From Neiella litorisoli (GTDB taxonomy: Bacteria > Pseudomonadota > Gammaproteobacteria > Enterobacterales > Neiellaceae): a stretch of DNA of 64,000 nt. Positions 62,063 through 64,000 of this stretch are shown here, one piece after another (position 1 is the stretch's first letter; each line of letters begins with the position of its first letter). The translations under genes were made by a program, and so were the position numbers. The notes under the pieces are model-generated. The model saw only the letters and a program-made list of their open reading frames with translations, was not told the DNA's origin and ran no database searches. The stretch is taken from assembly GCF_014773395.1 (NCBI RefSeq), contig NZ_JACXAF010000026.1:1-64000 (forward strand), read 5' to 3'.

Positions 62063-62086
62063 AAAAAAGCGGGGCTGCGCCCCGCT
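62063..62086 (-). terminator. intrinsic terminator of the amino-acid-binding protein gene
   Basis: On the minus strand, stem AGCGGGGC/GCCCCGCT with a 3-nt loop is followed by six T, about 10 bp after the stop codon. Confidence 0.92.
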
Positions 62087-62095
62087 AGTCAACAA

Positions 62096-62917
62096 TTAAG
62101 GCAGTTGGGCAAGCCATTCGCCGTTATCAAACCACTTGCTGCGAAGCTTGGTCATTAAACCGACGCGCTCGTAAGACACCATGAAATTGCGCACTAGGTT
62201 GAAAAAGTGCAAATCGCCATGGGGCAGGGCAACGCCAATGGGTTCCATTGACAGCGGTCGTTGCAGTGTCACAAAGTCATCGTTGGGATTACGTAATACG
62301 GCGAGCTTGCAAATGGCCATGTCGGCAAATAGCGCATCGACTTTTCGTTCTCGGATCAGCTTAATGGCCTCTTCATAATTGTTCACGCCAACAATTTCCG
62401 CTTTCGGAATATTTAGCTGTACCAAGGTCTTACTGGTTGAGCTTTTCAGTGCCGCGACTTTAATTCCTAAGCGATTAAAACCGCCATCCTGCTCAAGCTG
62501 TGCCATGCGCTCGCTGGTGGCTAACAATGATTTACCTGACACCATGTAAGGCTCAACAAAACTCACTTGCTTAGAGCGTTGGGAGGTGATCGACATGCCT
62601 GAAATGATCATGTCGGCGCGACCTGCTTGCACGGCACTAATGAGCTCCGGAAATGGCACCTTAATGATCTCCAGTTCGACATTCATGGCATTCGCCAGTG
62701 CTTGAGCCAAATCGACATCGTAGCCAATGAACATGCCACTGCGGCTGACGACATTAAATGGTGGTTGATCGCCGGTCATGGCAACCTTAACCACACCTCG
62801 GTCCAATACTCGATCGAGAATGGGACTCTCGGCATTGGCTTTGGTGACCACGAGCACCGGTAAGGCGATGATAAAAACTAAGATGAGTCGGCGAATAAAG
62901 TTAACGGTTGCAGCCAT
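62096..62917 (-). CDS. periplasmic amino-acid-binding-like protein (SBP family 3)
   Basis: A 273-residue periplasmic binding protein of family 3, with a signal peptide ending at ANA (about residue 29). GVVKVAMTGDQPPFN and FIGYDVDLAQALANAM are typical ligand-lobe segments, followed by AGRADMIISGMSITSQRSKQVSFVEPY. The second lobe has KVDALFADMAICKL. No permease or ATPase gene is adjacent, so it may feed a distant ABC transporter or serve in sensing. Ligand, probably an amino acid, is not determined. Confidence 0.9.
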   Translation of the reverse strand: MAATVNFIRRLILVFIIALPVLVVTKANAESPILDRVLDRGVVKVAMTGDQPPFNVVSRSGMFIGYDVDLAQALANAMNVELEIIKVPFPELISAVQAGRADMIISGMSITSQRSKQVSFVEPYMVSGKSLLATSERMAQLEQDGGFNRLGIKVAALKSSTSKTLVQLNIPKAEIVGVNNYEEAIKLIRERKVDALFADMAICKLAVLRNPNDDFVTLQRPLSMEPIGVALPHGDLHFFNLVRNFMVSYERVGLMTKLRSKWFDNGEWLAQLP

Positions 62918-63042: not shown

Positions 63043-63071
63043 TTGGCACATGCGGCGCAATCACATATCAT
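63043..63071 (+). promoter_or_regulatory. thrS sigma-70 promoter
   Basis: The -35 TTGGCA (63043-63048) and -10 TATCAT (63066-63071) are each one mismatch from consensus with a 17-bp spacer. Transcription should start near 63078, exactly where the first leader hairpin begins. This gives a leader of about 128 nt before the thrS ATG. Confidence 0.7.
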
Positions 63072-63077
63072 TGCTCG

Positions 63078-63187
63078 GTCCGATTGGTAACGGACACGAC
63101 ATTTTTTCTAAGAAGCCCTTATGGGGCTTTTTTATTTGCACTTTTAATTTACAGAAATAGCAAGTGGCCCTTGGTATGGGTCACCAC
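63078..63187 (+). promoter_or_regulatory. thrS leader with two tRNA-Thr anticodon-arm mimics (translational operator)
   Basis: Two stem-loops carry the tRNA-Thr(GGU) anticodon triplet. Arm 1 is at 63078-63095: stem GTCCG/CGGAC, loop ATTGGTAA. Arm 2 is at 63164-63184: a 7-bp stem GTGGCCC/GGGTCAC (one G-U pair) with a 7-nt loop TTGGTAT. The tRNA-Thr(GGU) loop is TTGGTAA on a CCC/GGG stem, so arm 2 is almost the same. Arm 2 lies 22-42 bases before the ATG. E. coli ThrRS represses its own translation by binding two such arms in the thrS leader, one on each subunit. The same role is inferred here. Confidence 0.75.
63112..63134 (+). terminator. terminator-like hairpin inside the thrS leader
   Basis: Stem AAGCCC/GGGCTT with a 5-nt loop is followed by a T-run (TTTTTTA), lying between the two tRNA-like arms and downstream of the predicted start. 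No plus-strand gene precedes it, so it would act on the thrS transcript itself, as an attenuator, or be only part of the fold. Confidence 0.6.
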
Positions 63188-63205
63188 TGTATTGTAGGAA
63201 AACAC

Positions 63206-64000
63206 ATGCCTGTAATTACTCTTCCAGACGGTTCTCAACGTAGTTTCGACAAACCAGTTTCGATTATGGATATTGCCATGGACATCGGTCCAGGCTTGGC
63301 CAAAGCGTGCATCGCTGGTCGTGTCAATGGTAGTCGCGTCGATGCAGTTGATCTCATTACTGAAGACGCCAATATCGAAATCATCACGGCAAAAGATGAA
63401 GACGGTTTGGAAATCATCCGCCACTCTTGTGCCCACTTACTGGGCCATGCCATCAAGCAATTGTGGCCAGATACCAAAATGGCGATTGGTCCGACGATTG
63501 ATAAAGGCTTCTACTACGATGTTGATCGCGAAGATCCCATCACTGAAGATGATTTGGTCGAGCTGGAAAAACGCATGTTGCAGTTGGCTAAAACCAACTA
63601 TGACGTGATCAAAAAAGTAGTGAGCTGGCAAGAAGCGCGTGATGCCTTTGAAGCGCGCGGTGAAACCTACAAGATGGAAATCCTCGATGAGAACGTCGCT
63701 AAAGACGACCGTCCTGGTTTGTATCATCACGAAGAATATGTCGACATGTGCCGCGGACCACACGTGCCAAACATGAAGTTCTGTCACCACTTTAAACTGA
63801 TGAGTGTTGCCGGTGCTTACTGGCGTGGCAACAGTGACAACAAAATGTTGCAGCGTGTTTATGGCACCGCATGGGCTGATAAAAAGCAGCTTAAAGCTTA
63901 TTTGCAACGGCTGGCTGAAGCTGAGAAGCGTGATCACCGCAAAATTGGCAAAACACTCGATCTGTTCCACTGGCAACAAGAAGCGCCAGGTATGGTGTTC
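63206..64000 (+). CDS. thrS: threonyl-tRNA synthetase (5' part, continues past window)
   Basis: The first 265 codons of ThrRS, still open at the window end. The enzyme charges tRNA-Thr with threonine and edits Ser-tRNA-Thr. The start [17 protein letters not shown] and the TGS domain (about 1-62, [19 protein letters not shown]) match E. coli ThrS closely. The editing domain follows with [16 protein letters not shown] (zinc/editing His residues near 73-77), [10 protein letters not shown] and FCHHFKLM. The catalytic domain begins near residue 245. AGGA lies 7 bases before the ATG. The C-terminal catalytic and anticodon-binding domains are outside the window. In most gammaproteobacteria infC follows. 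Confidence 0.97.

Follow-up and report, generated by a model that had tools for sequence, protein, structure and literature searches.

The leader of thrS, the threonyl-tRNA synthetase (ThrRS) gene that runs to the end of the 64,000-nucleotide stretch of Neiella litorisoli DNA analysed here (the window), contains two putative mimics of the tRNA-Thr anticodon arm and, between them, a hairpin followed by a run of T. Translational autoregulation through tRNA mimicry has a textbook example in the thrS operator of E. coli. Judged from comparative sequence evidence, the Neiella leader may combine an autogenous ThrRS operator of this E. coli type with a transcription attenuator placed between its arms, a reading of the whole that is put forward at somewhat less than even confidence. 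The translational operator is the known part; the attenuator is the candidate addition, and it is possibly a new mode of control.

Organisation of the thrS leader

The leader elements lie on the forward strand in the order promoter, arm 1, terminator-like hairpin, arm 2, Shine-Dalgarno sequence and ATG. A sigma-70-type promoter, TTGGCA-17-TATCAT (63043-63071), agrees with the consensus at 10 of 12 positions and sets the predicted transcription start at about 63078, the first base of arm 1, in keeping with the initial annotation, which had the transcript begin exactly at a stem-loop. A promoter with the same 17-nt spacer stands at the same place before arm 1 in three relatives as well (L003, L004, and L005). 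Arm 1, GTCCG-ATTGGTAA-CGGAC, occupies 63078-63095 and is conserved in relatives. It is followed by the G+C-rich hairpin AAGAAGCCC..GGGGCTTTTT (63110-63133; about 63110-63132 for the hairpin itself), which has a folding energy of -11.5 kcal/mol and leads directly into six T at 63128-63133. An A/U-rich linker upstream of arm 2 (63134-63163) may correspond to the U-rich part of the bipartite ribosome site of E. coli thrS, as described in the accessible part of PMC3858243; a weak hairpin is possible within it in the fold, and the terminator is part of the linker as well. Arm 2, GTGGCCC-TTGGTAT-GGGTCAC (63164-63184), is followed without a gap by the conserved CACTG (63185-63189), a Shine-Dalgarno-like AGGA (63196-63199), and the thrS ATG at 63206, which opens a frame of 657 codons that exceeds the window (63206-64000 within it).

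All three hairpins are present in the centroid fold of the leader. Two or more such arms arose in 13 of 5000 dinucleotide shuffles of the window leader, a between-arm terminator at least equally good in 4 of 5000, and any between-arm hairpin meeting the terminator rule in 104 of 5000. The nearest named relatives, by the ThrRS stretch, are Neiella marina (97% identity) and N. holothuriorum (90%). The neighbour gene upstream of thrS (62096-62917) has the opposite orientation, and a strong terminator on the minus strand (62068-62086) lies just beyond the end of this divergent gene.

Anticodon-arm mimics and the ThrRS operator

Arm 2 had been described as CCC-TTGGTAT-GGG, nearly identical to the anticodon arm of tRNA-Thr(GGU); this core is present, and the stem is in fact longer, with seven pairs (GTGGCCC/GGGTCAC). 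Its conservation was assessed in 184 distinct leaders, which remained from 220 after dropping 3 without a start codon at the expected place, 11 without the CACTG anchor, and 22 duplicates. Anchored on CACTG only, these leaders hold 86 distinct arm-2 sequences, 82 of which retain at least 5 of the 7 pairs. Without exception, these 82 carry G35 and U36, and any base may stand at position 34 (G 34, C 26, U 12, A 10). The conservation of the GGT loops, on which the initial annotation had made its reading depend, is thus of a particular kind: GT is kept behind a first base that is as variable as in the Thr anticodons NGU. An invariant GU with a free position 34 is what recognition of such anticodons predicts, and anticodon bases 34 to 36 are listed among the bacterial Thr determinants in the available portion of a review (PMC9976931). 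Covariation, calculated for 41 of the 82 arms, is pronounced: 97.2% of cells are paired, changes on both sides occur in 7 of 7 pairs, and the score is 0.730 versus 0.283 in shuffled and at most 0.171 in slid controls.

In E. coli MG1655, the corresponding sequence is GTGATCT-TTCGTGT-GGGTCAC-CACTG, at the same distance from the ATG as in the window and with a CGT loop. By its sequence, arm 2 is the counterpart of domain 2, the anticodon-like hairpin, of the E. coli thrS operator, in which ThrRS binds two anticodon-like arms in competition with the 30S subunit, as stated in the accessible parts of PMC7373986, PMC3858243, and PMC9976931. The CACTG was recovered after arm 2 also in a search that was not anchored on it; it occurs almost throughout the leaders of the order, including that of E. 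coli, and is unpaired in the model. The 11 leaders without this anchor include more distant members of the order that seemingly have no arm 2: in L117, L120, L121, L123-L125, and L128-L131, CACTG is absent and an arm 2 mostly unrecognisable, which suggests a loss or gain of the operator within the order.

A second, upstream anticodon-like arm is found at 63078-63095, and GGT stands in the loops of both arm 1 (63086-63088) and arm 2 (63173-63175), as had been noted. The proposal that arm 1 mimics the tRNA-Thr(GGU) arm holds for the sequence of its loop, which contains the UUGGUAA of the anticodon loop of the genome's own tRNA-Thr(GGU), and less well for its size (8 nt versus 7 in the tRNA). Simple arms 1 with an NGT loop occur in 47 of 109 leaders, compared with 6.6 expected from shuffles. 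As this search demands GT, it was repeated without that demand in 44 terminator-bearing leaders, and the NGT arm then proved to be the strongest hairpin downstream of the -10 box in most leaders of ten genera (g1, g44, g45, g49, g54, g55, g56, g70, g76, and g85), with another hairpin ranking first in some, e.g., L005, L173, L196, and L218. The stem varies with compensation, its fifth pair being GC in 15, CG in 7, TA in 4, and AT in 1 of 27 leaders. Where arm 1 and a terminator occur together, 5-13 nt separate the end of the -10 box from arm 1 in 29 of 30 leaders (the exception is L219, in which no -10 box was found), compared with a median distance of 49 nt in the 33 Pseudoalteromonas-type leaders, which have no terminator. 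With this spacing, arm 1 would emerge before any other structure, the terminator included.

Taken together, conservation and covariation strongly support the claim of two tRNA-Thr anticodon-arm mimics forming an operator of the E. coli thrS type. Because this operator is identical in kind to the one in E. coli, and in view of the biochemistry established there, it is very likely that ThrRS represses translation in the window too: ThrRS free of tRNA-Thr would bind arms 2 and 1 via their NGU loops and keep the 30S subunit off the ribosome site.

The probable terminator between the arms

The window differs from E. coli thrS by the terminator-like hairpin between the arms and by a plain anticodon arm 1 at the 5' end; a scan of the E. 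coli thrS leader returned neither a terminator nor a simple NGT arm 1. The presence of a hairpin with a T run between the arms was thus correctly noted from the window, and its comparative support is wider than the initial annotation could know. A first count over a fixed 110 nt upstream of arm 2 gave terminators in 17 of 111 leaders versus 2.45 in shuffles, and was replaced by a test of the interval between the arms because the 110-nt stretch mixes lineages. By the interval test, a terminator lies between the arms in 29 of the 80 leaders counted as having a separate arm 1, whereas 0.51 would be expected from shuffled intervals; the other 51 have arm 1 without a terminator in the interval, including three leaders of genus g51 in which both elements are fused and which were scored as lacking a terminator. 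Nine of 53 terminator candidates (L044, L049, L056, L059, L064, L106, L147, L172, and L202) had been removed by hand for lying in the promoter or upstream of arm 1, or for being weak. When the T run is not demanded, hairpins with at least four G-C pairs occur in 27 of 77 intervals, and 25 of these 27 hairpins are still followed by at least five T in seven. Going by these counts, the hairpin between the arms is not a chance feature. Its stem has also changed between lineages: AAGCCC/GGGCTT in the window, CACCC/GGGTG in most Alteromonadaceae, CACCT/AGGTG in three g44 leaders, GCACGCCC/GGGCGTGC in g45, and GACACC/GGTGTC in L101.

The hairpin could instead be a spacer that joins the arms, the T run being the U-rich half of a bipartite ribosome and S1 site, with no termination taking place. 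Such a U-rich stretch upstream of arm 2 is part of the E. coli thrS ribosome site according to the accessible text of PMC3858243, one leader of the Neiella family (L112) combines arm 1 with a hairpin that no T run follows, and the built-in terminator scan of the window listed none in the leader, presumably because it lets the A-T pairing of the stem run on into the T stretch. This explanation is nevertheless improbable. The T run goes with the hairpin at distances from arm 2 of 14 to 99 nt, a variation that suits a terminator better than a ribosome site of fixed position, and Pseudoalteromonas-type leaders hold their arms 31-43 nt apart (31 of 33) without any such hairpin. That the hairpin terminates an upstream gene was ruled out for the window, whose neighbouring gene is encoded on the opposite strand, and for 16 of the 19 relatives with a terminator that were checked, which likewise have a divergent upstream gene; the strand was assigned from the longest stop-free runs per strand, by which L005, L075, and L105 were scored as same-strand. 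Comparative sequence therefore points, with good confidence, to a genuine intrinsic terminator of moderate strength, which in the window would stop part of the transcripts some 50 nt from their start, short of arm 2 and the gene.

Among the thrS leaders surveyed, terminators were found only in two families. In the Neiella family, arm 1 and terminator occur together in g1 and g3 (4 of 6 leaders), and the terminator of L011 comes without an NGT arm 1. In the neighbouring family, a separate arm 1 with a terminator occurs in 10 genera and the fused form in g51, among 51 genera examined (52 are listed; g86 was not included). A terminator without a recognisable arm 1 is present in L011, L035, L036, L105, L166, L178, and L212, and the association between both elements on the tree is only suggestive (median p 0.06). 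This tree has 116 rows (L082, L102, and L163 are unlabelled) and 16 changes of terminator label, at least 8 of them forced by starred branches, gains and losses not being separated. In N. holothuriorum (L033), the linker holds an additional hairpin-like stretch, GTGCTGG...GGCAC, between the terminator and arm 2.

Possible control of termination

In nearly all of the 28 leaders folded as nascent transcripts, the RNA alone shows nothing that would make the terminator conditional, which counts against control by ThrRS: arm 1 and the terminator each form with a probability near 1 and no antiterminator pairing was found. The exception is Alteromonas antoniana (L101), where arm 1 and the terminator compete with a third fold of similar energy; these competing folds, about 105 to 60 bases upstream of thrS, are the only possible RNA switch seen. 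The same 28 leaders share no Thr-rich reading frame in a scan that began after the first 10 nt, and a candidate leader peptide starting at TTG 63084 in the window, which has several Thr codons, was rejected as it is not kept in L003, the one relative compared by eye. With neither antiterminator nor leader peptide, termination would be the default state, and only a bound factor could supply any control.

One rival reading takes the terminator as genuine but unregulated, i.e., a leaky brake by which the basal thrS message level is set, while ThrRS controls translation only, as in E. coli. The independent folding of arm 1 and terminator with no switch visible, the leaders with a terminator and no arm 1, and the moderate energy of the window hairpin (rank 12 among 36 candidates in the window) all favour it. 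It is still rather unlikely, since a weaker promoter could replace such a brake, yet the element is kept, with changed stems, in at least 13 genera of two families; the location of arm 1 at the very 5' end and the fused hairpins of g51 would also go unexplained.

Premature terminators of synthetase genes are often under the control of a T-box or a leader peptide. The B. subtilis thrS leader terminator is an example, as given in the accessible part of PMC3997798, and here too a factor other than ThrRS, such as a tRNA acting through a T-box, a leader peptide, or an elongation factor, might control the terminator. This is very improbable, given that leader reading frames are not conserved and that no Rfam family, and no T-box covariance model in particular, matched in the window (at gathering scores) or in 20 related loci (Rfam at E up to 0.05). 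The terminated RNA itself, with arm 1 and terminator in about 55 nt, could also be the product, serving as a ThrRS decoy or an Hfq-type small RNA; with its own promoter, an anticodon arm, and a terminator, it would be a complete small RNA. This reading is quite improbable: a single arm should bind the dimeric enzyme weakly, terminators without arm 1 exist, and arm 1 is present in the genome in a single copy at up to two mismatches.

ThrRS, for which the initial annotation had raised a role in termination as a possibility, is the obvious candidate factor, because its putative binding site adjoins the terminator or is the terminator. The latter applies to genus g51, in which arm 1 and terminator are one hairpin in three of four species (CACCC-CTCGTAT-GGGTG, CACCC-CCTCGTAT-GGGTG with an 8-nt loop, and CACCC-ATCGTAA-GGGTG, with T following each). 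The fourth species has a terminator without an NGT loop, which counts against gating by ThrRS. Only two matches to the pattern CACCCNNNGTRNGGGTGTTTTT exist in 395 genomes of the family, and both lie immediately before thrS in g51; a scan of viral contigs for the fused pattern gave no match and carries no weight. As the g51 terminator is itself an anticodon mimic, a protein on the folded arm can only favour the hairpin, which implies promotion and not prevention of termination. By the same token, ThrRS bound to arm 1, which leaves RNA polymerase before the other elements, might raise termination at the next hairpin, for which we would give nearly even chances. The timing counts against it, since bound ThrRS would have only about a second of transcription in which to act, as estimated from elongation rates. 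Should it hold, an excess of ThrRS would lower both the amount of full-length message and the translation of that message. The general statement, that in Neiella and many Alteromonadaceae ThrRS switches a terminator from the 5'-terminal mimic and blocks the ribosome from the second one, with g51 carrying a synthetase-gated terminator, is proposed at less than even odds.

The nearest precedent for such a dual mode is uL4, which acts on termination and translation in the S10 operon leader (PMC10931766, as far as its text is accessible); the S10 case involves another protein and mimicry of rRNA instead of tRNA. T-box control of thrS in Firmicutes shares the terminator in the thrS leader (PMC3997798, in the same excerpt) and differs in that the effector is a tRNA. 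The available portion of a survey of premature terminators (PMC2965389) reports attenuation to be frequent among RNA-binding proteins and cites E. coli ThrRS as a protein that regulates itself, with no mention there of a thrS attenuator. Full-text literature searches on thrS and synthetases, confined for the most part to open papers, found no thrS terminator outside T-box systems. If termination does depend on ThrRS, one mimic would act on two machines in a single leader. Leaders with arms only, with arms and a terminator, and with a fused arm-terminator would then represent a stepwise turn from translational to transcriptional control, and these predictions are directly testable with purified ThrRS and RNA polymerase. 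Regarding autogenous proteins that act on transcription, L20 reportedly attenuates infC in B. subtilis. L20-infC control in E. coli is translational, so that this case, besides involving a different protein, differs from the thrS leader in having one mode per organism.

The stem CACCC/GGGTG, shared by most terminators in Alteromonadaceae leaders, is identical to that of the tRNA-Thr(GGU) anticodon arm (L135, L140, and L161), and for this reason these terminators may descend from an anticodon mimic.
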